Below, in pieces: positions 2,664 to 38,325 of a stretch of 42,138 bases of DNA (within the stretch, counting starts at the first letter, position 1; each line of letters begins with the position of its first letter). Where the stretch lies: the IMG/VR virus record IMGVR_UViG_3300009169_000036, positions 1-42,138 of that record, one strand, 5' to 3'. The notes beneath the pieces were generated by a model, which was not told the origin of the DNA, made no database searches, and worked only from the letters and a program-made list of their open reading frames with translations. The position numbers were made by a program, and so were the translations under genes. The stretch is from a virus.

Positions 2664-2825
2664 TTACTCCGTAGAACCAAGGTTTTTCTGTCTGATTTGT
2701 TCGGCTATCCGGCGGAAAATTTCGTCGGTTTCCAGCGTGCTGCCCCGATTATAGAAAGCTGAACGGAGGGCGTACCACTCCTGCAGCGTCAAGGTGATCG
2801 TTATATCCGGGTCGGGGGTGGTCAT
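2664..2825 (-). CDS. Small hypothetical protein (53 aa)
   Basis: A short gene between the polymerase and the coiled-coil gene. It begins with MTTPDPDITITLTLQEWYAL and continues with a helical, charged stretch ending in QKNLGSTE. Its ATG overlaps the polymerase stop codon (ATGA), and its TAA is directly followed by the next gene's ATG, so it fits the coupled operon exactly. The ITLTLQEWYALRSAF part looks like a small helical protein. No function can be assigned. Confidence 0.7.
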   Translation of the reverse strand: MTTPDPDITITLTLQEWYALRSAFYNRGSTLETDEIFRRIAEQIRQKNLGSTE

Positions 2826-4672
2826 TTTGAGTACTCTCGTGCGAAGCCCCCTTCAGCCCCGAGGGGCAGATCAGGGCACCATGTTGGCGGTGTCATCATT
2901 TGGGCCAGAATGAAATTCAGTGAGGATTCAGCGACAAGGCGGTGGGCGAGGGCCAGAATTTCATCATGCGACATGGAGATGATGCGGTACTTTTTGGCCA
3001 CCTTCAGTATCTGTTCCCCGACAATGATGCGGGCCAGTGCCTGTGTGATGTTCTCTGCAAGCGCTCCACCATAGATTTTTTTGCCTTTCTTGGGGTTGGG
3101 GCGGCCTCCGCGGGCCAGAATGTCGGCGTTCTCGTAATCGAAATACACGTAACCGTCGTTGGACATGCTCAGGCCGGGGTATTCAAGGTACATGCCGTTA
3201 GGGAAGTAAATCCTGTTCTCTTTGCCGACAACTTTGAGGACACCGAAGTCGCCGTCTATGTCATAGATCATGTACTGCAGCATCTGGTCGCAGGTTTTCC
3301 AATACTCCACAGTCTTGCGTCGTGCACGGCGGTAACCATTAACGATGGATTGCGCTTCTTCAGCGGAGAGCAGCATCTTCGGACCCATGAGCCCGAGCAT
3401 GAGTGTCAGGATGAACTTCTTCCAGCCCATGCCGTAGCCCAGCCCCAAGACGGCTACCTTCCCCACGAAGCGTTGGGTGGATGTTATTTCATCCAGCTGC
3501 ATACCGTAAATCTGCGTGGCCATGTGCTTGTACACGTCTTCTTTATTACGGAATTGAGTGAGGACTTCCTGCTCATCGGCCAGCCACGCCAGTACACGAG
3601 CTTCGATCTGGGCGGAGTCTGCTACTACGATGACGTGGTCTTCGGGGGCCATCAAGGATTTGCGTAGTTCGCTGCCACGTGGCAGGTTCTGCAAATTCAT
3701 TTTGTTCCCGGCGCTCCAGCGGCCTGTGTGTGCGCCGTAGTATTTTAGGTACACTGGAATATTACAGTTGCCTGTGGTGCCTGCTATGATCAGGCGCTGT
3801 GCACGGGTTTCGGTGAGTGTGGATTTCACCGCCATGCGCGCAATAACAAGTTCCCGTACAGCCTCGTCCTCATGGAGCAGCAGCGCTTGAAAGCTTTCAT
3901 CAGATTTGGCGAAGGCGTAAGTTTCTTTGCTGGTTGTTTTTGATATTTTTGTAGGGGGCTCTACACCGAACAATCGTAGCAGGTTTGCGAATTTTGGATT
4001 TGAACTTAAATCGGTGGGGTCTTGTTTGGAAACTTGTATTTTCCGTGCTTTCTCTTGTCGTTCTTCTAGCAGCGCCAATTTTGCACGCGGCAGGTCCAAT
4101 ACTAAAACAGGCTCACAGAACATCCTGCACGTCTGGTCTATCAGATCGAGTTCGTCTTGACTGAATTTTGGCAGCATCAGCATGAACAGGTCGTAGCATA
4201 GCTGGGTATCCACCATGCAGTAGGTACCCAGTGTGTTCATGATTTCAGGCGGGAGTTCGCGAATGCCTTTGGTCTGGCTGAGGATGTCGGGAAGTTTATT
4301 CCCCAGTCTATAATATTCCGCCAGTGAATCTAATGAGGCTCCAACGCCGAGCGAATGTAGGGCGCGGCCCATCGATAGGGTGCAGAAATAATAAGCTGGA
4401 GTAAGAGCATAACGCTCAGTAAGAATATAGCCGTCAAACTGAGTATGGTGAGCAAGAAGAGCGTGGCTCGACCAATCAATTGTGTGAAGCGCTTCTCCGA
4501 CGTGTCTATCTGGAATCCATATAACATCAGCAGACCCTACCTTAATCCCGACGCATTGTGCTTTGAAGCGGTCATCACGCACGTACTCGCTTGTTGACAG
4601 CTTTTTGAGTGTGTACTTCGCATCATAATACGATTCGAAGTCGAGCGTAATAATCTTTTCAGGGTCTATCAT
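2822..4672 (-). CDS. DNA polymerase, family A, with 3'-5' proofreading domain
   Basis: The 616-residue replicative polymerase. N-terminal exonuclease: ExoI LD11FE13, ExoII H-T-Q-F-D80, ExoIII Y151-CMV-D155. Polymerase: the T-G-R-W-S and N-L-Q-N-L-P block at about 316-331; motif A D352-SAQIEAR; motif B R401-FVG-K405-VAVLGLGY413G; motif C H569-D-E571. All metal and dNTP-binding residues are present, so the enzyme should be active in both synthesis and proofreading. Motif A has D-S-A-Q where most Pol I enzymes have D-Y-S-Q. There is no 5'-3' exonuclease domain, as in T7 polymerase. It directly follows the SF2 helicase gene with no gap and overlaps the next gene by 4 bases. Confidence 0.97.
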   Translation of the reverse strand: MIDPEKIITLDFESYYDAKYTLKKLSTSEYVRDDRFKAQCVGIKVGSADVIWIPDRHVGEALHTIDWSSHALLAHHTQFDGYILTERYALTPAYYFCTLSMGRALHSLGVGASLDSLAEYYRLGNKLPDILSQTKGIRELPPEIMNTLGTYCMVDTQLCYDLFMLMLPKFSQDELDLIDQTCRMFCEPVLVLDLPRAKLALLEERQEKARKIQVSKQDPTDLSSNPKFANLLRLFGVEPPTKISKTTSKETYAFAKSDESFQALLLHEDEAVRELVIARMAVKSTLTETRAQRLIIAGTTGNCNIPVYLKYYGAHTGRWSAGNKMNLQNLPRGSELRKSLMAPEDHVIVVADSAQIEARVLAWLADEQEVLTQFRNKEDVYKHMATQIYGMQLDEITSTQRFVGKVAVLGLGYGMGWKKFILTLMLGLMGPKMLLSAEEAQSIVNGYRRARRKTVEYWKTCDQMLQYMIYDIDGDFGVLKVVGKENRIYFPNGMYLEYPGLSMSNDGYVYFDYENADILARGGRPNPKKGKKIYGGALAENITQALARIIVGEQILKVAKKYRIISMSHDEILALAHRLVAESSLNFILAQMMTPPTWCPDLPLGAEGGFAREYSK

Positions 4673-6034
4673 TTATTCCCCGTATGTTATTTGTGTCAGC
4701 AAGTCGTCCATCCGTATCTTCTTGGTAACCAGTGCTTCCCATACTTTCTCTTCGATAGTGTCTGGTGCCACGAAGACAATGGTTTCTGTTTTCTGTGTTT
4801 GGGTGGCGCGATATATGCGGCGCAGTCCTTGCTGGTAGTGCTCCAGATTGTACGTGGGTGATGCCCAGATCGTCGCTACGCCGCGTGTCAAAGTAATACT
4901 GTGGGCTGCGGACTGTGGGTGAGCGAAGCAAATACGATACATGCCCTTCTGGAAATATTCAACGTTTTCGTTGCGCTTACTGTCGGGTACGGAGCCGTCG
5001 ATGAGACAATAACTTAAACCACGGCGCTCTGCTTCGAGGATGAGCTGGGCTTTCTGGTGTTTCCACAGGAAAAAGATGACTGTGTGTGTCCTTTCTTCGG
5101 CTTTATCGATGACATCGCTGTAGCGTTCAGTGTCTACGAGGTGGTAGTTGCCGTCTTCATCGTAAACGGCACCGCTGGCAATTTGTAGTAATTTGGTAGC
5201 GACGGCGGCAGCGTTAACCGCAGATACAGCTTGCCCTTTGATAATTGCTATTTGCGCATCTTCCATCTGCTTGTAATTTTTTAGCTGCTTGTCGGTGAGG
5301 AAGTATTCTACGCAGTATTCGTGGTTGGGCGGTATGTCGATGCATTCTTCGAATTTGTGTCTGATGGTGATGTCTTCTATCAGTTTGGAAACAGCGTCAT
5401 TGGCTCCGGGACGATCTTCCCACTTAATCATGCTGGCCACAGGGCCGACTTGGCGGGGGATACAGACGGTAGCGCGGAATTTGAAGAAGGAGGTACCGAG
5501 TCGTTGGCCGTCGTCGATCACGAACATCTGATTCCAGACGTCGGTGATGGTATTAGGGTTGGGGGTTCCATTCATGCCATGACGGTATATGAAGTAGCGT
5601 TTTATTTTGTTCAGTGCTTTAGAACGTTGCGATGTGGAGTGCTTGAATGCGCCGAGTTCATCGACAATCAGCATATCGAAACCTTCAAAGAATGAAGGCG
5701 GCTGTTTTGCCAGCCAGACGGCAGCGTCGTGATTCGTTATATAGACATCTGCATGAGTCCAGAAGGCTTCACGTCGGTTGCGAGCGTAGGCACAGGACAA
5801 CCGCATATAGGGAGCGAATTTCTTGAAATCGTTTGCCCATGTAGAACGGATAGAAGATTTGGGGCATATGATGAGGGCTTTACCCGCGCCACGTATACGG
5901 CGCTGAGCGAACGATTCAATGGCTACTGCAGTTTTACCAGTACCGGGGTCGCTGGCATCAAATACACGGTCATGGTCGTTGCAGAAATTAATTGATACTC
6001 TTTGATGTTGATAGAGTTCAATCATATTGCCCAC
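4673..6034 (-). CDS. SF2 DNA helicase, SNF2/DEAD-like
   Basis: About 453 residues. Motif I is DPGTGK34T, motif II is DELG (D125-E126) in place of DEAH/DEGH, and motif III is near GTP (156-158). The C-terminal RecA domain has a motif V-like stretch around SAAHSITLTRG and motif VI in QGLRRIYRATQ (about 402-412). This is the layout of phage SNF2-type helicases, which remodel or unwind DNA or replication forks using ATP. I prefer the GTG at 6032-6034, which has GAGGAG 4 bases upstream, over the ATG at 6025, which lies 13 bases from it. It overlaps the upstream small gene by 17 bases and abuts the polymerase, so the two are probably co-translated parts of the replisome. Confidence 0.93.
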   Translation of the reverse strand: MGNMIELYQHQRVSINFCNDHDRVFDASDPGTGKTAVAIESFAQRRIRGAGKALIICPKSSIRSTWANDFKKFAPYMRLSCAYARNRREAFWTHADVYITNHDAAVWLAKQPPSFFEGFDMLIVDELGAFKHSTSQRSKALNKIKRYFIYRHGMNGTPNPNTITDVWNQMFVIDDGQRLGTSFFKFRATVCIPRQVGPVASMIKWEDRPGANDAVSKLIEDITIRHKFEECIDIPPNHEYCVEYFLTDKQLKNYKQMEDAQIAIIKGQAVSAVNAAAVATKLLQIASGAVYDEDGNYHLVDTERYSDVIDKAEERTHTVIFFLWKHQKAQLILEAERRGLSYCLIDGSVPDSKRNENVEYFQKGMYRICFAHPQSAAHSITLTRGVATIWASPTYNLEHYQQGLRRIYRATQTQKTETIVFVAPDTIEEKVWEALVTKKIRMDDLLTQITYGE

Positions 6035-6275
6035 GGCGCTCCTCTTCCATCGCTGCTTTGCGTTCCATCTCGTACTCGAATTCGAGTTGCTTGGCTTTCT
6101 CGCTGTCGGGAGCATAAGCGTAGGCGATGACATGTCCCTTAGGATCGAGTATTTCGTACTCGTCGTTGTCTTCTAAATGAGCTACTCCGATTTTAAGTAG
6201 TTCGAAAAGATCGATGCTGAGATGTTTGCTGATTTGTTTTCCTTCACGATACGTGATGAGGGCATAAATAATCAT
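6018..6275 (-). CDS. Small hypothetical protein (85 aa) with charged C-terminal helix
   Basis: The start at 6273-6275 is set by a GGAGGT site 3-4 bases upstream. The N-terminal half looks like a compact beta/alpha unit (MIIYALITYREGKQISKHL, then DNDEYEILDPKGHVIAYAY). The last 35 residues form a highly charged helix rich in E, K and R. It overlaps the helicase gene and could be a helicase or polymerase accessory protein, but there is no family match I can name. It is the first gene after a structured untranslated stretch and may open a separately controlled segment. Confidence 0.7.
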   Translation of the reverse strand: MIIYALITYREGKQISKHLSIDLFELLKIGVAHLEDNDEYEILDPKGHVIAYAYAPDSEKAKQLEFEYEMERKAAMEEERRGQYD

Positions 6276-6457: not shown

Positions 6458-7252
6458 CTAGTACGATCGATTTTGTTTTTTCGCGCGCAACAGTGCATCG
6501 CGTGCACGGTTGTTGAGATTAGGCGATACGCCATACTCACAGGCGTTGCCATTGTATGGACACCACTTGCAGGAGAAGGCGTTAGGGTTGGGCTTAAAGT
6601 CCGTGCAGGTGGATATAGCCAGTAGTCGATTATTATATTTATCGAAGTACTGCGTGCCCTGCATACGGGAATACACTTTGATATCCGTTTCACCAATGTC
6701 GGTGTACCAGAACTCTACGGTGATATGATCGATTTCCGGGAACCGCAGGAACGTGGACAACTGGTAAATCTGCCCCTGCTCGGTGTGCTTGATCTCGTTG
6801 CCCTGCCGTCGTCCTGTTTTGTAGTCGATGACTCGTGCGAATGTCCCGTCTTCGCTGGTAACCAGCGCGTCGAGTTTCATGCGGCACCACGCGTCGTCCG
6901 ATGTCCACGCTACAGGCTCCCATTCAAGGTTCACAGCCCACTCGCCTTCGAGCTGAACCCGGTTGTCGCTGAATAAACTACGCAGCTCGTCAAATTCAGC
7001 TTTGAAACTGTGTAGCTCGGGGATCAGTTCCACTCCGCCACGGACATACATCTCTGCGGCGTCGTGTACACGTGATCCCCGGTCATTGGCGTGTTCAGTC
7101 TTACCCGCCGGAAGGGGGCGGGCAGGCTCGGGAATCTGGTCAATATACATGAGCTTGGCCATGTATTTGCACTTCTCGAAGTTTTGCAGCCGGGAGAAGC
7201 TGACCTTGTTGATTGTGTCCATGAGCGCCCCACTAGTAGGTAGAACGCCCAT
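6458..7252 (-). CDS. Cas4/RecB-like PD-(D/E)xK exonuclease with 4Fe-4S cluster
   Basis: 264 residues (254 if the ATG at 7222, which has GGGG 5 bases upstream, is used). The protein begins with VSFSRLQNFEKC28KY and has GSRVH63 and MKLD128AL. The core is ARVID143YK145TG, the catalytic D-x-K motif, followed by EQGQ161IYQL, the conserved QxxxY helix. C28 pairs with a C-terminal cluster C228-x2-C231-x6-C238 to make the four ligands of an iron-sulphur cluster, as in Cas4 and AddB nucleases. The complete motif set predicts an active single-strand exonuclease used in recombination or end processing. It lies between the JAMM gene and the helicase, in the same direction. Confidence 0.92.
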   Translation of the reverse strand: MGVLPTSGALMDTINKVSFSRLQNFEKCKYMAKLMYIDQIPEPARPLPAGKTEHANDRGSRVHDAAEMYVRGGVELIPELHSFKAEFDELRSLFSDNRVQLEGEWAVNLEWEPVAWTSDDAWCRMKLDALVTSEDGTFARVIDYKTGRRQGNEIKHTEQGQIYQLSTFLRFPEIDHITVEFWYTDIGETDIKVYSRMQGTQYFDKYNNRLLAISTCTDFKPNPNAFSCKWCPYNGNACEYGVSPNLNNRARDALLRAKKQNRSY

Positions 7253-7263
7253 GATACAAGGTT

Positions 7264-8388
7264 TTAGCTGGTAAACGCCAATACTCCGTTGAGTTCCCCA
7301 TAAGTTTCGGTGTATTCTTGGTAGTCGAACAAATCTCCTGCGCTATCACAAACCCACAATTTTCCATCGGAATCCATCAGAACCTCGGTATTGTCGACGC
7401 CGTTGTAGACAATTTCCATGCTGTACTGATCTTCTAGGGTGAATTTTTTCGTGGTGGGCTTGGGCAGTTTCGGGACGTCGGTAGCTTCTGCACGATAGTC
7501 GTATCCGTATGTATTGCCCCATTCGTCATCGTCATTCCAGCGTGCAAATTCAGTGCGTGGTCCGGCACCGTAGCCGCCATAGCCATTGTGGTAGCTATCG
7601 GTGCTTGGATTTCTTACCCCGCCGCCATTTCCATGGCTTGCTGATGACTTTCCCGCAGGTTGCTGCTGGCCACCTCCCCACTGATAGTCATAGGATCGTG
7701 GGACATAGGGTGTAGGTGTATATACATATTCTTTGACATTGATTTTGATAATGTCGTCGATGTCTTTCGTCCATTGCGGATCGTCGTCGTGCAGTATGCC
7801 ATGCCGAACGTTTTGGTAAGCAATACCGTGGCGAACATAGTAGACGTCCAGCTTCAGGTCGCCTTTCTTGTTTTGGATGCCACGGATGAAGCAGGGTACC
7901 TCAGGCTGGTCAACCAAGTCTTCAAGGAACTCCTCAACTTGGTATTCGTCCTGTGCGGACGGGCCGACGCCCATATTGACGTGTGAGTGGAACCACGCAT
8001 ACATTTTGCCGGTGTCTTTACCCTGTTCGATGAGTGCAAGTGCGGCGTCAGCGAGGGCTTCCTTACCGATGTCGGTTTCAGCGGCGGTGACGGTTTGTTC
8101 GGGGATGACAATTTCGGTGATGACGTATGCGTGGTCGTCTTCATAATAATCAACAAGTGCAAACCAGCCGACTTCTTTGGTGCATTTCGCAACGAGATGG
8201 CACTGCTTGACCCATGCTTCGCGGGTGAAATAGATCATGGGTTCTGCTGGGTAGTCCTTCCCTCCTCGGATGGCTACAGGGCCGGTGCCTGTAAGTGCAG
8301 TTGTGTTGACCTTATATGTCATGCGGTCACGTTTGTTGATGATTGATGCGTTTGTAACTGCCGCATATCCTCCTGTTACTGCTGTCAT
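7264..8388 (-). CDS. JAMM/JAB-domain metalloprotease (putative deubiquitinase-like)
   Basis: 374 residues. The N-terminal 200 residues form a JAB/MPN domain: E72 in KEVGWF, then WFH134SH136 followed by seven residues, S144 and D147 (H-x-H-x7-S-x2-D). This is the complete zinc-binding and catalytic motif of JAMM isopeptidases. Residues about 230-310 are a low-complexity linker rich in G, Y, N and Q. A small C-terminal domain follows (about 320-374), starting KKFTLEDQYSMEIVYNG. AAGGAG 6 bases upstream fixes the start. It lies directly after the E1 gene. In known systems JAMM proteins cut ubiquitin-like modifiers from targets or trim their C-termini, and this is the expected role here. Confidence 0.93.
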   Translation of the reverse strand: MTAVTGGYAAVTNASIINKRDRMTYKVNTTALTGTGPVAIRGGKDYPAEPMIYFTREAWVKQCHLVAKCTKEVGWFALVDYYEDDHAYVITEIVIPEQTVTAAETDIGKEALADAALALIEQGKDTGKMYAWFHSHVNMGVGPSAQDEYQVEEFLEDLVDQPEVPCFIRGIQNKKGDLKLDVYYVRHGIAYQNVRHGILHDDDPQWTKDIDDIIKINVKEYVYTPTPYVPRSYDYQWGGGQQQPAGKSSASHGNGGGVRNPSTDSYHNGYGGYGAGPRTEFARWNDDDEWGNTYGYDYRAEATDVPKLPKPTTKKFTLEDQYSMEIVYNGVDNTEVLMDSDGKLWVCDSAGDLFDYQEYTETYGELNGVLAFTS

Positions 8389-8398
8389 ACACTACTCC

Positions 8399-9139
8399 TT
8401 ATGCTGCAATGGCTGACATAGTCATTGTCAGTGTGGGTTTGAAGAATAAATCGACGCGAGGCTGCAACCCAACGGGGTCTACGAAAAATTGCATCATCTG
8501 CCACACAGCATAATTGGCGATGAGTGAAGCCGTGGTACCGACACTGAGTGCGGTGCCGCAGGGGCTTAGTTCGATGCTGTCTTCATCGTCGTCGTCCACT
8601 AATGTGGAGCGCCATTGTTTGTACAGTTCGTCGTCAAAAAGATTAAGAGTAAATATAGAACCGTGGGTTGATGCCATACGGGTTTCGATGACGAGCAATG
8701 GTGCAGAAGCTGCTGCTGAACCGAGTGAATGGCAACGTCGATGGAGTCCTGCAACAATTTCTCGGCGGCTGGCCATGGTGTCGGTGAGAAGGAATACGAT
8801 ACCGCCTGCAACGCCACCATTACGCAAGTAGCCGTCAGTTACTCTGCGATTGTAAGCTTCCATTCCCTCGGGCACGATACCCAATTTATGGCGTGCAAAA
8901 GCAATACAGCCATTAACTTTTGGCTCGTTGATGTCATCAACACCATAAATCTGGTTGGCTAGATTATGATCTTCGACGACATCATCGTCGTATACATGAA
9001 GGTCTGTGATCCCCAATTCAACCAGTGCAGCAAATACTCGTGAGCCGGTGGCTCCAGCACCGATGATATGTATCGGGTATGGGTATTCTTTCGGATTGAA
9101 AATGGATTCATGGCGCATGATATTGATTGATTCAGTCAT
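8399..9139 (-). CDS. ThiF/E1-type ubiquitin-like-protein activating enzyme
   Basis: 246 residues with a Rossmann ATP-binding fold: I-I-G27-A-G29-A-T-G32-S, then the acidic strand end YDDD53 with DHN59LANQ63 (the place of the E1 family's NLNRQ; the arginine is replaced), K74, and LTD120T. These are the usual ThiF/MoeB/E1 nucleotide and magnesium ligands. C194 in SPCGTAL is a candidate active-site cysteine. There is no CxxC zinc site. The enzyme would adenylate the C-terminus of a Ubl and pass it to a cysteine. It starts 3 bases after the E2-like gene and ends 10 bases before the JAMM gene, and a Ubl gene is in the same operon. The E1 family call is strong; the substrate is inferred. Confidence 0.92.
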   Translation of the reverse strand: MTESINIMRHESIFNPKEYPYPIHIIGAGATGSRVFAALVELGITDLHVYDDDVVEDHNLANQIYGVDDINEPKVNGCIAFARHKLGIVPEGMEAYNRRVTDGYLRNGGVAGGIVFLLTDTMASRREIVAGLHRRCHSLGSAAASAPLLVIETRMASTHGSIFTLNLFDDELYKQWRSTLVDDDDEDSIELSPCGTALSVGTTASLIANYAVWQMMQFFVDPVGLQPRVDLFFKPTLTMTMSAIAA

Positions 9140-9142
9140 TTT

Positions 9143-10888
9143 TTACTCCTCGTCTTCGGGTTCGCAGCGGCAAGCGTCGATATGTCGTTCACAATCACTA
9201 CAGTAATGATCCATCCAGCAACCGGAACAAATACGGTTCATGTTATTATCGTTATAATATTCGTCATCATCGCCTACAGACATTTCGTCGCAGGAATAAC
9301 AAATGTGATTTTGCGCTATTTCGATACGCTCACATACTGCACAACATTGTGCGTGGTATTCGCCATATGCTGATATTGCCGCTTCAAGTTTTTCCAGATG
9401 GATTACGGGTTCTTGTCTATACATGTTCATACCTGAAAGCATAGAAGTAGTGTAGCTTTCTGAATTCTCAAATAGATGTATGTGTGAAGGATGATAGTAT
9501 TGTGCGGCTACGCCTGCGGAGTCTTGTGAATTGTATTGACTGTAAAAAGCGATGAGTGTGCCTACATATGAAATCAAGTCGCCGTTGTTGGCCTGATCGA
9601 CAAGTGTTTGTCCGAATGAACCAAAGCACGGTTGATCGGATAATTGATGTGGGTGTATATCGTACGCGCAATGACCGGGATTATTGTTTCTCGATAATCC
9701 AAGTGTATTGCCGTCTCGTGTGGGGCATGTTGCTTTGCCTATGGCAGACAATTTAACGGTGATGTAGAAAGGGGCGAGTAATATACTTTCCGGATTTGAA
9801 TATGCTGATTCTGGTGAAGATTCTTCCATTCGTATATTGCACAGGCCGACGCGAAGATAAACTGCTTTGTCGGCGTTGGAAATGTAAAATTCGACGCCCC
9901 ATACGTGATCCCATGTGGCTATGGTATCGGCAACTTGTTTGACGTCGATGGAAATATAACGTTCAGGTTTTTGACGAATCATCGCTGCTTGTTGATTGTG
10001 TTCTGCTTGTAGTCTGCCGTAACGTCGTTTGTGATCCATGTATCGCATTTTTTCATTGCGCAATTCGTAGAAGGTTTCTACTGTGTCGCGATATGTGCGT
10101 GTTGATTGTACGTCTGCGACTTGCGCGAGCAAATAGACTAAGTCGCGAGAAGAAAACATATTCTCCATAAGAAATTTAAGGTATTTTCGGTCTTTTGGAG
10201 CGGCTGTAAGTATTGCGCTGCGTGCGGCTGTTAATCGACGTAATGATTTATAGTGTGATCTGAATTGGTCACGTAGATCGCCGAAAACATGACGCATGGG
10301 GTGCGCAAAATCATAATTGAATGCTTCACGGGGGTATTTTTCGCGTAGTGCGCGCAATTCAATCTCATGTGAATTCTGTTTCATCTGGAACATTGTATGT
10401 CTAGCAGGACGTGATTGTGCTGTGGTTCCGAAAATGCTTACTTGGGGGCGGCTAGTGGTGGTGCCGGTGCTGGCGCTGGTGTTGGTGATGTAAGAAGCCA
10501 TGTCATACTCCTGTTCATTTAGTAGCTGGTCTCTACGATTCTTGATTTGTTGTAGTGTTAGTGTGAGTGTTTGTATGTAGTCCGGGTCGATAGGGCTATC
10601 AGGATTGAATGTTTCCGGTATTAAAGGTTGAGCAACTAAGATGTGGTAACTATCGTCGTGGTATTGAAATGCCGAATTTCGTATTTGCGTAGTTGCGTTC
10701 CCTATATGCCGTTGACATTCTCCTAACGTCATTCTGGAAAGTGCATCTTCTTCTGGCGTAGGTGGTCGTGTCAGGTCTGAGAAAGACGTGCCGTGCCAAT
10801 CCGTACTGAATACTGGTGTCGGTGCGAGCATGCGCTCTCGAATTCTTATCACGTCATCAATTGAAATCTGGTCAGTTCTTATAGCCAT
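9143..10888 (-). CDS. Candidate E2-like/zinc-knuckle fusion protein of the Ubl cassette
   Basis: 581 residues, no exact family known to me. Residues 1-310 are mostly helical and charged, with a Ser/Thr-rich linker near 135-160. Residues about 327-455 are beta-rich and include H412-P-H414-x6-C421-F-G-S-F-G followed by helical segments. This matches the HPN-x7-C spacing around the catalytic cysteine of ubiquitin-conjugating enzymes. Residues 515-575 hold eleven cysteines; eight form four CxxC knuckles (516/519, 530/533, 554/557, 563/566) in acidic surroundings, which suggests a two-zinc RING- or LIM-like module. GAGGA 6 bases upstream fixes the start. The gene sits between the Ubl and E1 genes. 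An E2-plus-ligase role is inference; a structural or substrate protein is the main alternative. Confidence 0.6.
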   Translation of the reverse strand: MAIRTDQISIDDVIRIRERMLAPTPVFSTDWHGTSFSDLTRPPTPEEDALSRMTLGECQRHIGNATTQIRNSAFQYHDDSYHILVAQPLIPETFNPDSPIDPDYIQTLTLTLQQIKNRRDQLLNEQEYDMASYITNTSASTGTTTSRPQVSIFGTTAQSRPARHTMFQMKQNSHEIELRALREKYPREAFNYDFAHPMRHVFGDLRDQFRSHYKSLRRLTAARSAILTAAPKDRKYLKFLMENMFSSRDLVYLLAQVADVQSTRTYRDTVETFYELRNEKMRYMDHKRRYGRLQAEHNQQAAMIRQKPERYISIDVKQVADTIATWDHVWGVEFYISNADKAVYLRVGLCNIRMEESSPESAYSNPESILLAPFYITVKLSAIGKATCPTRDGNTLGLSRNNNPGHCAYDIHPHQLSDQPCFGSFGQTLVDQANNGDLISYVGTLIAFYSQYNSQDSAGVAAQYYHPSHIHLFENSESYTTSMLSGMNMYRQEPVIHLEKLEAAISAYGEYHAQCCAVCERIEIAQNHICYSCDEMSVGDDDEYYNDNNMNRICSGCWMDHYCSDCERHIDACRCEPEDEE

Positions 10889-10900
10889 GGACAGTCCTCG

Positions 10901-10943
10901 AAAAAGAGAGGAAAATAGCCCCTAGGTTTTGAGGCCTAGGGGC
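10901..10943 (-). terminator. Attenuator-like hairpin between Ubl and E2-like genes
   Basis: On the minus strand GCCCCTAGG (10935-10943) pairs perfectly with CCTAGGGGC (10918-10926) around an 8-base loop. It is followed by TATTTTCC and a second T-rich stretch. The stem is strong and the U tract is imperfect, so partial termination is likely. It lies 17 bases after the Ubl stop codon and before the E2-like gene. Confidence 0.7.
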
Positions 10944-10960
10944 CGGGGTTCGAAGACGTA

Positions 10961-11173
10961 CTAGCTGTTACCCACAGCGTTCTTCGAAAGCAGAACCGTT
11001 GCACCATCATTGAGATAGGTGCTGGTTGTAGCAGGCGAACCGTTGACGCGGATCGCGTAGTTGCCAGCATCCTTACCTGCGATGCTCAGCAGGTCGGCTA
11101 CAGTTGCGCCACTCTCAAGACCAAACTCTTGAGTGGCTCCGGGTACTTGCGTGAGCTTAACCATGATGCTCAT
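10961..11173 (-). CDS. Ubiquitin-like beta-grasp protein (ThiS/MoaD-like)
   Basis: 70 residues. The order of elements is that of a beta-grasp fold: strand MVKLTQVPG, strand TQEFGLES, helix TVADLLSIAG, strand NYAIRVNGSPA, and the final strand GATVLLSKN. The pattern V-N-G-x-P-A ... L-x-D-G-x-x-V-x-L is typical of ThiS/MoaD and small phage Ubls. The C-terminus is AVGNS, not the usual GG, so it may be trimmed after G68 or used as it is. AGGAGG 9 bases upstream of the ATG at 11171-11173 is one of the strongest ribosome sites in the window and suggests high expression. It heads the cassette with the E2-like, E1 and JAMM genes and would be the modifier. Confidence 0.8.
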   Translation of the reverse strand: MSIMVKLTQVPGATQEFGLESGATVADLLSIAGKDAGNYAIRVNGSPATTSTYLNDGATVLLSKNAVGNS

Positions 11174-15380: not shown

Positions 15381-15649
15381 TTTTTCCCCTCGCGGACTAT
15401 TCCTGCTGTTTGTCGTGCAACTTCGAGTGTGATCAGGCGTTCGATAGCAGCCATATCGAGGTTTTTTACGATGTCGATGTAGTGTTCTTCTACTAATCGT
15501 TCCACAGTACGTTTAACGAAGTCTTTATTTATCTCGGCGATGAGGGTAGGTGTAAGGGCAGTGAGTGAATCTACGCCGTAGCGCATGTGCGTTTTTCGGG
15601 CGTACTCATCATAAACGATATCTAATTCAACTCGCGCTATGTTACTCAT
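15377..15649 (-). CDS. Hypothetical protein (90 aa)
   Basis: A beta start (ARVELDIVYDEYARKTHMRY) is followed by helices (LIAEINKDFVKRTVERLVE; IVKNLDMAAIERLITLEV). No cysteine motif or membrane segment is present. It directly follows the primase-helicase gene with a 4-base overlap, so it may be a replication accessory protein, but this rests on position alone. Confidence 0.65.
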   Translation of the reverse strand: MSNIARVELDIVYDEYARKTHMRYGVDSLTALTPTLIAEINKDFVKRTVERLVEEHYIDIVKNLDMAAIERLITLEVARQTAGIVREGKK

Positions 15650-18012
15650 AGTGGGGTCCCGTATTTGTCTACTTCAATAATTGTGCCGGGAGGATGTTGT
15701 GGCACAGTTTTCATCACGCCGTATTCACGTTGGGTTTTGGCAAACCATTCGCTGCTGTCACGCCAGTCCACGGTTATGCCGCGCTGTGCTGTACCGTCTA
15801 TGCGATTCACGCTGATTTTCAGGCCGTGGTGCCTGAGATATTTGGAGAACTTGGCAGGTGTGGCAGGTACGTGACCTACTGTCGCTTCAAATATGACGCG
15901 CAGCTCCTCGCGTGTGAAGCGGTCGCGTCCTTCACAGACCACCTCTCGTATCAGTTTGTTGTAGCGCTGGACGATGATCTTGTGGTCGAGGTTCATGATG
16001 TCTTTGTCGTCTTCACAATATCCGTACAGCACATGTGCGCGTCCGAGGATCAGTGCGTTAGCTATCTCATCTACGGAGGTTTCACTCAATGCCTGCATGT
16101 CCACCTTGGCGGAGGTCAAGCCTGCTGTTTGTGCTTGGCGTTCGTTAACTGGATAGATGAGCAGGTGGTGCATGAAGGCAGGTAGTTCAGTGGCGATGGT
16201 GTCGAGTTCAGTTTCGCTGATAAGCAGAGGGTGTAGTTGGTAGTCTGCTATGTTAAACCGTCGGTCAGTCATTTCTACGATGATTGGATTGCGTTTGTTG
16301 GAGCTGAATATCCAATTTGTCCTGTTGGGGACTTCGATCACGTTGGCGTACATCTTGCGGATGGAGATGGTGGGTTCCGTCATGTAGTTCTTGATGTCTG
16401 CCATGATCTGCTGGTCTTTGCGTGATTGAGGGATGTCCACTTCGTCCACGTTGACCAGCTGTGCGCATTCGAGGAAGCCGTTGTAGCTGTCCTCGAAGTT
16501 GGCTGTGCGCATCTGCACGGCGTTCTTGTAGCCTATGAGAGGTCTGAGTATTCGGTGGAAGAGGATGCCTTTCCCTGTGCCTTGAGAACCATGGAACACC
16601 CAGCCTGTACCTGACGCTTGCTTTGTCTGGACGACAAAAGCGAGCCAATTGGTGAAAAGGGCAACATTATCTGTTCCGAGAACGTGTTCAATGATTTTGT
16701 CGATCGTGGGGGTGGGATTGGAATTGGGGGCATGGTTTCTTTCCAGTTCAGATTGTACGTACAGATTGATTTCTTTGGCCTCTTTGTTGACTCGGGGGCC
16801 TTCAAAGTGTGGGTTGTGTGTCAGGCGGTAGGTGGGCAGCGTCTCCAGCTCGATGTTGTATTCAGCGAGGAAGTTGATGGCGTCGGTTGATTTTCGTGCC
16901 ATGTGCAGTTCAAGGTCGTCTTTGGTTTCGTCGTAGAAGCCGTTGTATACGGCTCCGTCCTGCAGGCCTCTGAAAGCAATGGCGGTGCGGCCTCCGGCTT
17001 TCTCTTGGCCTGTCTGTATGGCCATGAATGCGTAGTAATCAGGGAGTAATTCTTCAGTCCGGTAGGTGGGCTCGCCTTTGAAATTGAAAATGAATTCGAA
17101 ATTGTCTGTGGGGTGGTAGTACGCCCAGCTATCGCCGCCGTTGAAGTTGAAATAGGTGAAGCCTCTGTCCTGTTTGACGTCTGTGATCTTAGCATGGCTT
17201 GGATTGGGCAGGTATAATACGTTGGTGCCTTTCAGGTTGAAATAAGTCGACCGCTTCTTCTCCAGTCCAATGTCTTCTCTGAGTTTGTTGATGATGGTGA
17301 TTTCGGTCTTCTTGATGGTTTCAGGATTGAGGGCGTCCAGCTCCAAAATCGCTGTAGGCACCACGTTGAACTGGCCTTGGTGGTAGGTGATGCGAGGTGT
17401 GGTGATGGTGTCGACGTAGGGTGGGTGTACGTCCGGGGGTGCTATGTAGAGGATTTTGTCGTTCTGGCAGGTGGTGATATCGAGCCCAAAACGTAGTGCT
17501 AAATTTGACGCAGTTAGGCGTAAATCAGCATTAAACGTCGTGAAGTTCTTCTGTTTCAGCCACAGTTTCACTTTGTGGGGGGATACGGGTTCGGACAGCA
17601 TGACGAAGATGTGGGCGTTGAAGGCTGGGTCGACTTGGCCATGGAGGCTCAGAAATGCGCTGGATGACCACTGGGTGACGTAGGAATAATCGCTAAGGCC
17701 GAGGTCAGCCATGAAGGCATCAGCGTCTGCGACTCCGGTGAGGCCATCAGCGTCGAAGCACAGCCACGGTGTGTGTTTATCTCTGTCCGTGGTACCTGCA
17801 CGGCTTTCGTTGACCAGAGGGCGTTCTAGGGTGCCTTTAAGGAGGCAGTTACCGATGGCTGCCTGTGCGTTGAGCATGAGTTCGAAGTTTTTGAGGGTGG
17901 ATACAGCCACGGTGAGGGAGGTGAATTCGTATGCAGCGGGGTAGGAGTGTTTGCCTTGTTCATTGAACGTTTTACGGAGGGGTATGGCAGCTTTGAGGAA
18001 GGTTATTTCCAT
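15646..18012 (-). CDS. Primase-helicase (AEP-like primase fused to D5/SF3-type helicase)
   Basis: 788 residues from the ATG at 18010-18012, which has an AGGG site 8 bases upstream. The N-terminal part has FD87AD89G and H134 in NAHIFVML, consistent with the DxD and histidine motifs of archaeo-eukaryotic-type primases. The C-terminal helicase has Walker A GSQGTGK481G, Walker B VNVD523E524, and the sensor/arginine block IFSSN572 ... DRR585F, as in DUF5906/D5-like phage helicases. The protein would prime and unwind at the origin. It is the first gene after an AT-rich gap with repeats, consistent with an adjacent origin. The helicase call is strong; the primase call is moderate because the motifs are partly diverged. 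Confidence 0.88.
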   Translation of the reverse strand: MEITFLKAAIPLRKTFNEQGKHSYPAAYEFTSLTVAVSTLKNFELMLNAQAAIGNCLLKGTLERPLVNESRAGTTDRDKHTPWLCFDADGLTGVADADAFMADLGLSDYSYVTQWSSSAFLSLHGQVDPAFNAHIFVMLSEPVSPHKVKLWLKQKNFTTFNADLRLTASNLALRFGLDITTCQNDKILYIAPPDVHPPYVDTITTPRITYHQGQFNVVPTAILELDALNPETIKKTEITIINKLREDIGLEKKRSTYFNLKGTNVLYLPNPSHAKITDVKQDRGFTYFNFNGGDSWAYYHPTDNFEFIFNFKGEPTYRTEELLPDYYAFMAIQTGQEKAGGRTAIAFRGLQDGAVYNGFYDETKDDLELHMARKSTDAINFLAEYNIELETLPTYRLTHNPHFEGPRVNKEAKEINLYVQSELERNHAPNSNPTPTIDKIIEHVLGTDNVALFTNWLAFVVQTKQASGTGWVFHGSQGTGKGILFHRILRPLIGYKNAVQMRTANFEDSYNGFLECAQLVNVDEVDIPQSRKDQQIMADIKNYMTEPTISIRKMYANVIEVPNRTNWIFSSNKRNPIIVEMTDRRFNIADYQLHPLLISETELDTIATELPAFMHHLLIYPVNERQAQTAGLTSAKVDMQALSETSVDEIANALILGRAHVLYGYCEDDKDIMNLDHKIIVQRYNKLIREVVCEGRDRFTREELRVIFEATVGHVPATPAKFSKYLRHHGLKISVNRIDGTAQRGITVDWRDSSEWFAKTQREYGVMKTVPQHPPGTIIEVDKYGTPL

Positions 18013-18410
18013 GTTGGATACCCTGTTGTTGTGTCTGTCAGTTGGGTCATGGAGCATACACCGCTGTGGTGGTTGTTGGGAAGTGTTTCGTTTTTTACAC
18101 TTTTGTTTTGGTGGTGTAACAGTCGGCAGGCCGCGAAAACACTGGTGGTGTTACTCTTGTTACAGTTATTACTCATTTCTTATTCATATATAAAATACTT
18201 CTAAAGGGTAAAATGGGTGAAAATGAGTAAATAAACTTTTTTTCCTATAGTAATACGCAATTGAAAACTGTAACGCTGTTTTACTTGGTTTTATTTGGAT
18301 AAATCCAAGAAAAATTTTAACTTCTTTTTTGTTTTCAATAGGTTAGGGCGTTACGAATTTACTTTCCAGAAAGTGAAACGCCAGTGTGTGTCTACTTTCT
18401 GGCCTGAGGT
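18013..18410. other. AT-rich non-coding region with repeats: candidate replication origin and primase promoter
   Basis: No supported gene. The stretch about 18180-18360 is strongly AT-rich. GTAAC/GTTAC sites occur at 18116, 18150, 18159, 18270 and 18350, several within CTGTAAC or GGTGGTGT(A/T)AC. Inverted pairs are ATTGAAAAC 18260-18268 with GTTTTCAAT 18331-18339, TTGGAT 18295-18300 with ATCCAA 18303-18308, and CCAGAAAGT 18366-18374 with ACTTTCTGG 18394-18402. The primase gene starts right after it and a terminator precedes it, so a promoter must also be here. Origin function is inference. Confidence 0.45.
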
Positions 18411-35247: not shown

Positions 35248-38200
35248 ATGGCTGTCGCCTTCGATGCTTCCAGCGAGTCCCACACCGGTACGACTGGTGT
35301 CGCTTCTGTAGCCAGTTTTAGTTGGACACATACTCCAGTAGGCACACCGAGAGGCGTCGTTGTTTTCTGTTTGGCCGTAGGCGACAAAACGGATATTTTT
35401 ACCGGTGTTACTTATGGTGGAGTAGCGATGACTGAGGTGACGCTTGGTATTGCACGCGATTCTACTACTGAAATCGCAGTGGTAAAAGCATATTTCTTAG
35501 GGGCAGCGCTTCCTACTGGGGCGCAAACGATAGAAGTATCTCGCACTAACAACGCCACGGTTACTTACGCTGCTGCGTTGACCGTTACCGCAGGAGCTGA
35601 CACTAGTTACACGGGAGTTACACGACGAGAAGAAAACTCAAACATTACTCAAGTAGAGGTAAGTGACGCTAACGCCTTAGTAAACTCTCTACGTGTCGCA
35701 GGTATTTATACTGGTTCGCTAGACGTAACACCGGGGGCTGGTTCAACGCGTGAAATCGGCATCCAATTTACAAATTATACGTTTGGGCTCTTCCGTGAAA
35801 CTACTGCGGGTACTGGTACCCGTCCTGTCGGTATGCTGGCCGCAACTGATGATAGAGCTGAAGTCTATTTGGCAATTAGAGAGGTGGTTGCAGGAGCGAC
35901 AGACACTACTACGCTAGATTATACAGGCGCAGTTGCTGGCGATACGTTGTTAGCCGTACTAGCGCAGTATGGTGGGGTGCTTACTTCTATTTGGACGGCT
36001 GGTGCATCTATGGGTACACCACGCGGGGACTCAGCCGGAGCAGGTACGCAAACTGCGGCCTTATCCTTCGGGGGCGTTCTGCCCAATGGTATCACGGAAC
36101 TTTCAACCACCGAAGAATACGATGGTATTAGCTGGTCAGCCGGTGGAGCGCTAGCTACAGCGCGGGAAAGCCTAGCCGGAGCAGGTACACAAACTGCGGC
36201 CTTATCGATTGGCGGCTGGACTAGCGCTGTTTCCACCATCACTGAAGAATATGATGGTACTAGCTGGGCATCCGGTGGAGCGCTAGCTACAGGACGCTAC
36301 TGGCTAGCCGGATGCGGAACACAAACAGCGGGCTTATCCTTCGGTGGGTCTCCCAGCTCCAGCACAGTCACCGAAGAATATGACGGCACTAGCTGGGCAG
36401 CCGGTGGAGCGCTAGCTACAGGACGCGCCAACCTAGCCGGATGCGGAACACAAACAGCAGGCTTATCTTTTGGGGGCATTATTACAGCTACTCTCTCCGC
36501 AGTCACCGAAGAATATAACGGTACTAGCTGGTCAGCCGGTGGAGCGCTAGCTACAGCGCGTCGAGACTTAGGCGGATGCGGAACACAAACAGCAGGCTTA
36601 TCTTTCGGTGGGTCTATCCTCACGGAGTTAACTGTAATCACCGAAGAATACGACGGTACTAGCTGGTCAGCTGGTACGGGTTTATTGGTAGCACGCGCCG
36701 GTCAAGCCGGATGCGGAACACAAACAGCGGGCTTATCCTCCGGGGTCGCTACTGAGGAGTATGGTAAAAGCGGCGATGCTTTTTCAACCCCCGGTGTGTG
36801 GTCAAGCAGTGGGAGTCTATCTACACCACGTCGAGAATTAGCCGGAGCAGGTACACAAACTGCGGCCTTATCTTTCGGTGGGTATAGCGGCGTGCGCTCC
36901 GCCGTCACCGAAGAATATAACGGTACTAGCTGGGCATCCGGTGGGAATCTAGCTACAGCGCGGGAAGGACTAGCCGGATGCGGAACACAAACAGCAGGCT
37001 TATCCTTCGGGGGCATGAGTAATATTGATGTTTCCGCCGACACTGAAGAATATGATGGTACTAGCTGGTCAACCGGTGGGAATCTAGCTCAAAAGCGAGT
37101 TTATCTAGCCGGATGCGGAACACAAACAGCAGGCTTATCCGTCGCGGGCGATAATACCGGCACGGCGCTGACCGACGTCACCGAAGAATATGACGGCACT
37201 AGCTGGTCATCTGGTGGGTCTCTTGTATCTGAGCGGGACGGACTAGCCGGATGCGGAACACAAACAGCAGCCTTATCCTACGGGGGCGAGGGTCTCACTA
37301 GTATTTTTAACACCTGTCACGAATATGATGGTACTAGCTGGGCAAGCAGAAATTACCTAGTTCTTACACGTAGACAACCTGCCGGAGCAGGTACAGTAAC
37401 GGCGGCATTAGCGATCGCGCGATCGACTTCCCGTACGGACTCGGTTGAAGAGTATGATGGTAGTGTCTGGTCGCTGACGGGTGGCCTTACTGTATCATGT
37501 GCATCGATGGGTGGGGCGGGTACGAGAACGGCGGGCCTAGCGTTTGGTGGCTATGAGGGCTCTACTAGCCAATACGCCACTATTAGTCACGAGTATACTA
37601 CAATCCCATGGCGTTACGTACAAGCCGCTGTTAGTACTAATGCCCTTGCCCTCGTGCATATCTTCAAAGCCGAAGCACAGGGTGGAGAAGAGAGTTTTGC
37701 GTTCCGACACAATTACCGAGAGACTTTAGGCAAAGCAATTATTTTAACTACATCAGCTGGTTACGAATATCTCAGCGTAACAGCAGCGACGGTTAATACG
37801 GGCACAAACTCCAGTCCTATATCCCCTACGATAACACCCTCGACGTCTGGCTCTAACGTGGTGATTGCCGGAGTCGCGGTAAGTGGGGATAGTTCACCGA
37901 TTACAGAGGACACCGATTTAACAGATTTGTACGAGGTTCAATCCAGTGCAAGTGCGGCCTCGGTCGGTATGTATATAGGTAAGCAAGAGGATGTGGTCGG
38001 GGCGTCTGGCACCTACACCCACACAATAGCGTCCAGCGACGACTGGGTAGGGTTCACGCTCTACGTCAACCAACTAGAAGATACCGGTTTTGCCGTCACT
38101 GACGTTGATTTAGATGAGACCATTACAAACGGACAAACCGGTGTTATTATCAGTATAACCGGCACGGTACCAGCGTCTGGGAAGAAGGTGTTTATTGTGC

Positions 38201-38325
38201 AGGGTGCAAACTCTGTAGAACAAACAGTGACGGCGGAAAATGCGTCGTCAGCAACTATTACGGTTTCATATGGCGGTGTTCTAACAGGGGGTGCCGCCAC
38301 TTTATACGTACGTAAACCATTGTAA
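35248..38325 (+). CDS. Large tail fibre/receptor-binding-type protein with Kelch-like repeats (1025 aa)
   Basis: The N-terminal 230 residues form a beta-rich domain (ESHTGTTGVASVASFSW then TYGGVAMTEV) that is shared with the fibre gene at 39263. Residues about 250-770 contain 12 repeats of about 43-47 residues with L-A-G-C-G-T-Q-T-A-G-L-S-F-G-G and T-E-E-Y-D-G-T-S-W, the pattern of Kelch-like blades. The sixth repeat is irregular and is followed by a new W-S-S-S-G-S-L-S-T-P-R start like that before the first repeat, so two six-bladed propellers are likely. The C-terminus (about 790-1025) is another beta domain. Such proteins bind host surface sugars or proteins. Confidence 0.8.
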   Translation: MAVAFDASSESHTGTTGVASVASFSWTHTPVGTPRGVVVFCLAVGDKTDIFTGVTYGGVAMTEVTLGIARDSTTEIAVVKAYFLGAALPTGAQTIEVSRTNNATVTYAAALTVTAGADTSYTGVTRREENSNITQVEVSDANALVNSLRVAGIYTGSLDVTPGAGSTREIGIQFTNYTFGLFRETTAGTGTRPVGMLAATDDRAEVYLAIREVVAGATDTTTLDYTGAVAGDTLLAVLAQYGGVLTSIWTAGASMGTPRGDSAGAGTQTAALSFGGVLPNGITELSTTEEYDGISWSAGGALATARESLAGAGTQTAALSIGGWTSAVSTITEEYDGTSWASGGALATGRYWLAGCGTQTAGLSFGGSPSSSTVTEEYDGTSWAAGGALATGRANLAGCGTQTAGLSFGGIITATLSAVTEEYNGTSWSAGGALATARRDLGGCGTQTAGLSFGGSILTELTVITEEYDGTSWSAGTGLLVARAGQAGCGTQTAGLSSGVATEEYGKSGDAFSTPGVWSSSGSLSTPRRELAGAGTQTAALSFGGYSGVRSAVTEEYNGTSWASGGNLATAREGLAGCGTQTAGLSFGGMSNIDVSADTEEYDGTSWSTGGNLAQKRVYLAGCGTQTAGLSVAGDNTGTALTDVTEEYDGTSWSSGGSLVSERDGLAGCGTQTAALSYGGEGLTSIFNTCHEYDGTSWASRNYLVLTRRQPAGAGTVTAALAIARSTSRTDSVEEYDGSVWSLTGGLTVSCASMGGAGTRTAGLAFGGYEGSTSQYATISHEYTTIPWRYVQAAVSTNALALVHIFKAEAQGGEESFAFRHNYRETLGKAIILTTSAGYEYLSVTAATVNTGTNSSPISPTITPSTSGSNVVIAGVAVSGDSSPITEDTDLTDLYEVQSSASAASVGMYIGKQEDVVGASGTYTHTIASSDDWVGFTLYVNQLEDTGFAVTDVDLDETITNGQTGVIISITGTVPASGKKVFIVQGANSVEQTVTAENASSATITVSYGGVLTGGAATLYVRKPL

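Follow-up and report, generated by a model that had tools for sequence, protein, structure and literature searches.

Bacterial ubiquitin-like pathways are known mainly as antiphage defence, and a virus that itself encodes such a pathway raises the question of what protein tagging could do in an infection. A candidate is IMG/VR virus record IMGVR_UViG_3300009169_000036, analysed as one record at its full length of 42,138 bases (the window). Four co-directional, tightly packed open reading frames (ORFs) on its minus strand span 7264–11173 and encode a 70-residue ubiquitin-like modifier (Ubl, 10961..11173), a 581-residue protein resembling ubiquitin-conjugating enzymes (E2-like, 9143..10888), a 246-residue ubiquitin-activating-type enzyme (E1, 8399..9139) and a 374-residue JAMM/JAB metalloprotease (7264..8388), with intergenic gaps of 72, 3 and 10 bases. 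The initial annotation had described four adjacent, co-directional ORFs with gaps of 3–72 bases, forming a full pathway within the replication arm of the phage; the arrangement holds in position, strand and spacing, and the pathway claim is borne out as far as homology and gene order go. Homology, catalytic residues, linkage and an RNA hairpin behind the Ubl gene together make it probable that the cassette encodes a phage-borne, reversible Ubl-conjugation pathway, whose chemical steps are proposed below from sequence evidence.

Among the four window proteins, only the E1 gives a strong match as a single sequence (Pfam ThiF, E = 5.5e-15). The closest solved relative of its family profile is UBA5 (6e-17), in line with a minimal ThiF/UBA5-type adenylyltransferase, and homologues in related phages are found by phmmer at E-values down to 1e-61. 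In an alignment of 31 diverse E1s, including those of crAss-like, Flavobacterium and Xanthomonas phages and of Obscuribacterales bacteria, the GxGxxGS motif is kept and 12 residues are invariant (G27, G29, S33, D51, D53, E56, N59, Q63, K74, D120, R154, C194). The last of these, the putative thioester cysteine (codon 8558..8560, minus strand), aligns with the cysteine of UBA5 EGVCAASLPTTMG in a weak, poorly scoring second segment; CxxC zinc pairs are absent from the window E1 sequence. The JAMM protein alone reaches only Prok-JAB in Pfam (0.11), and phmmer finds homologues in related phages down to 1e-45. E72, H134, H136, S144 and D147 are invariant in its family alignment, and over 30 JAMMs the last four remain invariant and E72 nearly so. 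Rpn11/PSMD14 is the closest match of the JAMM profile in the PDB (1.7e-6), with PfJAMM1 at 2e-4, pointing to an Rpn11-like core that is followed by a variable C-terminal extension. Both enzyme calls of the initial annotation are thereby borne out: the ThiF domain, GxGxxG, catalytic D/N/R/K residues and Cys of the E1 are all present, as is the complete E..HxH..S..D metal site of the JAMM, which is kept in the family.

The window Ubl matches ThiS (7e-4) and SAMP2 (9e-4) in Pfam, both below curated cut-offs, and has phmmer homologues in related phages down to 1e-12. SAMP2 is also the closest PDB relative of the Ubl profile (5lda_B, E = 0.007); this one solved entry, 5lda, contains both PfJAMM1 and SAMP2 as chains, and JAMM1/SAMP2 is an archaeal protease–modifier pair. 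Ubl lengths range from 70 to 93 residues in the loci of the first E1 scan. The C-terminus reads ..AVGNS in the window and ..GAKGN in the family consensus, and G68-N69 is invariant at this end in an alignment of 13 sequences. From a set of 65 distinct Ubls, 60 were scored; KGN forms the last [x]G[NA] in 51 of them and xGN in 55, mostly with 0–1 residues after the ..GN end. Several loci (numbered with the prefix L) encode tandem Ubls in which each unit ends in ..GN: three near-identical units in L119 (8734-9402) and L125 (2264-2896), two in L121 (8800-9246) and L156, and three with linkers in L167 (3665-4546). These proteins resemble polyubiquitin genes and give the JAMM an obvious job. In L020 the Ubl ends in ..EGGN-YED, which hints at cleavage before the asparagine (mature ..G, N as P1'), the alternative being a mature ..GN. 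A Ubl in L004 (7237-7518) carries a Lys/Pro/Ala-rich C-terminal extension beyond ..KGN.

The E2-like protein requires an indirect approach. Its active-site motif, H412-P413-H414-x6-C421 with putative catalytic Cys421 (codons 9626..9655, minus strand), is present as initially annotated, and phmmer finds homologues in related phages, located together with those of the other three genes, down to 3e-6. Aligned with relatives, H412, P413, H414, C421, G423, D456, A458 and G459 are invariant; the core motif [HAG]PH-x-G-xx-C-[LFW]-G occurs in most distinct homologues, and its Cys and Gly are invariant over 61 of them. We modelled the core of a relative (L122, 6625-7110) with AlphaFold2 (AF2) from an alignment of 55 sequences including the window. 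The model is of high confidence (predicted local distance difference test, pLDDT, 96.2; predicted template-modelling score, pTM, 0.87) and shows a helix, strands, the Cys loop and then helices. In hhalign the L122-core family matches four human E2s at 88.7% (E = 2.6e-6, 123 columns); PH falls on HPN, the Cys on the catalytic Cys and N-x-x-D-x-A on NPDDPL. Control profiles (reversed, 60 column-shuffled and unrelated) reach at most 0.84%. Of the four human sequences, UBE2D3, on whose HPN..C the HPH..C motif is placed, is the one confirmed against the PDB. The window E2-like family joins the L122-core family at 99.3% (E = 1.6e-20). An E2-like fold around C421 had been set beforehand as a test of the proposal, and the relative's core together with the profile chain came out in its favour. 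The assignment to the ubiquitin-conjugating (UBC) fold is thus well supported through the relatives' profile and modelled core.

Other searches with this protein returned less. Neither tblastn with the E2-like protein nor megablast with 25 kb found a match in cultured phages, and an IMG/VR scan using the single window sequence found none, the E1 as bait giving relatives instead. A Pfam scan of the 55 E2 cores and a PDB profile search contained no E2 match, and the top matches of a BFVD fold search were only unnamed or uncharacterized proteins. Besides an N-terminal helical region, the window protein has a Cys-rich C-terminal tail (9164..9343, minus strand). The four CxxC knuckles claimed for it are there (from residues 516, 530, 554 and 563), yet they lie outside the conserved E2 core. 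Similar Cys arrays were counted automatically in 4 of 77 relatives (L115, L128, L131, L136) and occur in addition in L002. With so few relatives carrying one, a Cys-rich or zinc tail was ruled out as a defining part of the E2-like protein. In the window the tail could be a zinc-binding or substrate-binding module and possibly has an E3-like role. Two adjacent E2-like genes were seen in L118, L135, L137, L166, L167 and L171; the second is often motif-altered (APR/APY..C, or V/G replacing Cys) and is possibly a pseudo-E2 partner.

Do the four genes belong together? A first IMG/VR scan with the E1 gave 17 loci, nearly all with a Ubl, a JAMM and an HPH-x6-8-C protein within a few kilobases. A wider search was baited with all four profiles in turn and followed by iterated hidden Markov model (HMM) searches of every ORF. 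Loci with all four genes numbered 64 of 81 with E1 as bait (the E1-baited scan being the best 80 of 236), 33 of 46 with JAMM, 20 of 24 with Ubl and 10 of 10 with E2. Where at least 6 kb was available on both sides, the corresponding numbers are 36 of 44, 20 of 28, 12 of 13 and 5 of 5. Redundancy is moderate: clustering the E1s at 90% identity leaves 71 clusters, 48 with all four genes, and at 50% identity 29 clusters, 18 with all four. Gene order varies between UBL-E2-E1-JAMM, as in the window, UBL-E1-JAMM-E2, E2-JAMM-E1-UBL and UBL-E2-JAMM-E1; linkage is therefore kept through rearrangement. Cassette-bearing contigs reach 395 kb. Nine relatives have portal proteins 36–43% identical to that of the window and therefore form one phage group with it, whereas the other loci are far more distant. 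Independent occurrence of the genes, which would have spoken against a joint pathway, is thus not the pattern observed, as the four are linked in most baited loci. The initial annotation's estimate of the breadth was too small, since many phage lineages and some bacterial genomes carry the cassette. The co-travelling of the four-gene set in many unrelated phages suggests that bacterial viruses have a protein-tagging system of their own at work while they infect.

A number of observations weigh against a complete conjugation pathway. The window E2-like protein alone yields nothing useful in Pfam, PHROGs and NCBIfam scans. Its own family matches the human E2s directly at only 2%, over the HPH..C motif, and a full-length AF2 model of the protein was discarded (pLDDT 44.8). 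Foldseek against the PDB ranks UbcH7 first, weakly (E = 0.01, template-modelling score, TM, 0.26); UbcH7 and UbcH5C are both within the top five matches, at E = 0.01–0.3 and TM 0.26–0.36. Because the direct match covers the motif only, the full-length model is poor and the UbcH7 match weak, the E2 assignment is transitive for the window protein. The Ubl lacks a GG end, G68 being followed by N, and the support for its predicted ThiS-type beta-grasp fold comes from the sequence, through likeness to ThiS and SAMP2. The profiles were iterated and trained on the same loci that were later scored, and some loci have E1 and JAMM with no detected Ubl or E2, perhaps because these are divergent.

If the four proteins act together, the JAMM would process Ubl precursors by trimming them at their conserved ..(K)G-N end, and would cut tandem Ubls where these are encoded. 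The E1 would adenylate the Ubl C-terminus with ATP and probably hold the Ubl as a thioester on Cys194. From there it would pass to Cys421 of the E2-like protein and onto target lysines (or amino-termini), the targets being chosen by the long extra domains of the E2, which in the window include the Cys-rich, possibly zinc-binding, E3-like tail; the JAMM would take the tag off again. Replication and repair genes (polymerase A, DnaB, DnaG, SMC-like, uracil-DNA glycosylase, ligase, topoisomerase) recur as neighbours of the cassette and were seen in the window, crAss001, Fpv1, PhiXhv-12, L119 and L125. Since unrelated phages keep the cassette among replication genes, the most likely targets are proteins, of phage or host, that belong to the replication and takeover phase. 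The initial annotation had named capsid, replisome and host defence proteins as candidate targets. A full cascade carried by phages and tied to replication genes would, if confirmed, amount to protein tagging within normal infection.

Expression of the cassette may be shaped by the RNA between its first two genes. A strong hairpin (10917..10944, minus strand), with a 10-bp stem followed by ATTTTCCTCT, lies in the 72-base gap that separates the Ubl and E2-like genes; it has a folding energy of -29.1 kcal/mol (z = -4.1), matches a terminator-like scan and has a T-rich run behind it. Across loci, the 80-base stretches behind Ubl genes show unusual structure (63 regions, median z = -2.33, 65% below -2) compared with those after E2, E1 and JAMM genes (median z from -0.6 to +0.1, 16–23% below -2; p = 4e-13 vs Ubl), and hairpins after the Ubl genes of other phages recur without sequence conservation. 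In loci where the Ubl gene comes last, the hairpin may be an ordinary terminator; with the enzymes downstream, it could raise Ubl expression over that of the enzymes. Strong structure (z = -5.4) is also present in the window in the 80 bases past the JAMM stop (7184-7263), which take in the start of an exonuclease gene.

Which known system does the cassette resemble, and does any of them offer a better explanation? Bil (BilABCD) likewise combines Ubl, E1, E2 and JAMM in a single operon. Its Ubl is two-domain, its E1 has inactive and active adenylation domains and a Cys domain, and its E2 has a CEHH arrangement with the His after the Cys (PMC11354881). These defining features are absent from the window cassette, which is phage-borne and has a single-domain E1 of 246 residues, a single-domain Ubl of 70 residues and the His before the Cys. 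Type II cyclic-oligonucleotide-based antiphage signalling systems (CBASS) share the E1, E2 and JAB chemistry through Cap2/Cap3; there, a single protein, Cap2, has both the E1 and the E2 domain, and the cGAS-like enzyme itself serves as the tag (PMC10097602). The window has separate genes and a dedicated Ubl, its E1 profile resembles CBASS E1–E2 models distantly and over a partial match only, and no CD-NTase was found among the proteins scanned near the cassette. Since hosts use such pathways against phages (PMC10097602; Bil in PMC11354881), and given this distant E1 likeness, the phage genes might instead compete for or reverse host Bil or type II CBASS conjugation, or tag and inactivate host defence proteins. 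We consider this counter-defence role unlikely: an own Ubl, E2 and E1 exceed the needs of a decoy or protease, the placement among replication genes is conserved, and the cassette also occurs in bacterial genomes.

Stand-alone Ubl, E2-like, E1-like and JAB genes are also found in the PRTRC genetic system, which corresponds to operon type 6d in the survey by Iyer et al. (2006). Type 6d has an E2 without the upstream His, a JAB with an extra N-terminal domain and an alpha-helical partner (PMC1779556); none of the PRTRC models exceeded its cut-off against the window proteins, the ThiF model scoring 30 bits vs a cut-off of 145. The multi-Ubl bacterial operons of type 6e share the one to three Ubl repeats per protein, and their E1 is usually fused to a JAB and their E2-like domain lacks the Cys (PMC1779556). 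Known JAB, ThiF and Ubl clusters serve sulfur chemistry (PMC1779556), and the window Ubl and E1 do resemble ThiS and ThiF. In a sulfur-carrier pathway, the E1 would activate a ThiS/MoaD-like Ubl as a thiocarboxylate, the JAMM would expose its C-terminus and the fourth protein would use the sulfur, e.g. for nucleotide or tRNA modification. The cassette, however, includes a UBC-type protein with an invariant Cys, no sulfurtransferase or rhodanese was seen among the proteins scanned, the Ubl ends in GN and not GG, tandem poly-Ubls fit a modifier better, and the E1 profile is closest to UBA5, so that this explanation appears improbable.

Among solved structures, archaeal SAMP2 (5lda) comes nearest to the Ubl profile and UBA5/ThiF E1s to the E1 profile; JAMM1 likewise ranks among the nearest to the JAMM profile. 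SAMPylation uses an E1 without an E2, unlike the window cassette, and SAMP/Urm1 systems work with E1 alone. The genes might accordingly be real and linked, with the E2-like protein as a catalytically unrelated scaffold and the E1 attaching the Ubl directly, as in archaeal SAMPylation or urmylation. The window E2-like protein has no direct database match and some loci lack a detectable E2, as this would predict, but the invariant Cys within the HPH..C motif and the 123-column alignment with human E2 argue against such a scaffold, which we rate slightly below even the sulfur carrier. A virion or tail-assembly role, with Ubl and JAMM processing structural proteins like lambda I/K, is very improbable: lambdoid phages do combine a Ubl and a JAB peptidase among their tail genes (PMC1779556), but that set includes neither an E1 nor an E2, no NlpC/P60 match was found here, and the cassette sits among replication genes, with the structural genes (terminase, portal, capsid) on the opposite strand.

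A reversible Ubl-conjugation pathway thus remains the preferred reading, and we provisionally regard the cassette as a form of the bacterial Ubl systems that is new and is widespread in phages, set apart from Bil, PRTRC, CBASS Cap2/3 and the lambda tail module. Putative ubiquitination-like pathways of bacteria also include the Bub operons, a family defined only recently (PMC13373217). For phages, the 2006 survey lists only the tail-assembly module in its accessible part (PMC1779556), and we found no description of a phage four-gene Ubl cascade in the open-access papers searched, most subscription papers lying outside the search.

Cultured or complete phage genomes with at least the E1 and JAMM are those of crAss001 (gp76/gp77), crAss-like cr111_1 and Flavobacterium phage Fpv1 (gp53/gp54), and Xanthomonas phage PhiXhv-12 has an E1 with an HPH..C protein directly upstream. 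In crAss001, cr111_1 and Fpv1 an adjoining protein has an HSH..C motif, with a profile match to E2 of only 24–35%; these neighbours in L003 (crAss001 gp76–gp79), L176 and L175 may be divergent E2s, and crAss001 gp78, at 35% only, was kept as a lead. As a Ubl candidate, crAss001 gp79 was unsupported (0.14% vs the Ubl profile). The crAss-like and Flavobacterium E1 and JAMM proteins are annotated as ThiF, metalloprotease or hypothetical. A conjugation pathway would explain such cultured-phage proteins, annotated only 'thiamine biosynthesis protein ThiF' or 'metalloprotease', and would provide simple four-gene systems for the roles of E1, E2 and JAMM and for the origin of polyubiquitin-type genes.

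Bacterial carriers are few. Scanning 85,000 species genomes of bacteria and archaea with JAMM gave nine loci, one on a 260-kb contig; six are titled Melainabacteria or Obscuribacter(ales), and the four-gene set is complete in seven. When 386 genomes were sampled from the Obscuribacterales phylum, the JAMM profile found one strong match, and the bacterial distribution therefore looks narrow. Directly after the E1, and co-directional with it, a Clp/Hsp100-type AAA+ gene is present in seven of the nine loci (L166–L171 and L174; e.g. L167, 10210-12675); judged by inspection alone, it has neither the long ClpB middle-domain insertion nor an evident ClpP-docking loop. A wider reading, which we put forward as possible rather than probable, is that diverse tailed phages, probably including crAss-like ones, run a complete ubiquitin-type cascade with polyubiquitin-like precursors and G-N ends that tags replication-phase proteins, and that the Obscuribacterales version couples the tag to a dedicated Clp/Hsp100 unfoldase. 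This coupling would parallel, in bacteria, the way ubiquitin feeds an AAA+ machine, and the unfoldase link makes the purpose of the tag testable. A TerD-domain gene was also seen near the cassette in L167.

The surroundings of the window cassette were assigned by family scans. A PD-(D/E)XK exonuclease gene (6458..7252, minus strand) begins 11 bases after the JAMM gene and is accompanied by genes for an SNF2-type helicase (4673..6133, minus strand) and DNA polymerase A (PolA; 2822..4672, minus strand). The polymerase and a DUF5906/VapE-like primase-helicase (15646..18057, minus strand) are kept near the cassette in close relatives. Elsewhere, tandem repeats of ~129–135 bases occupy 36104-37287 inside a large ORF (35248-38325), and the right end of the record (40157-42138) contains 66-base repeats.

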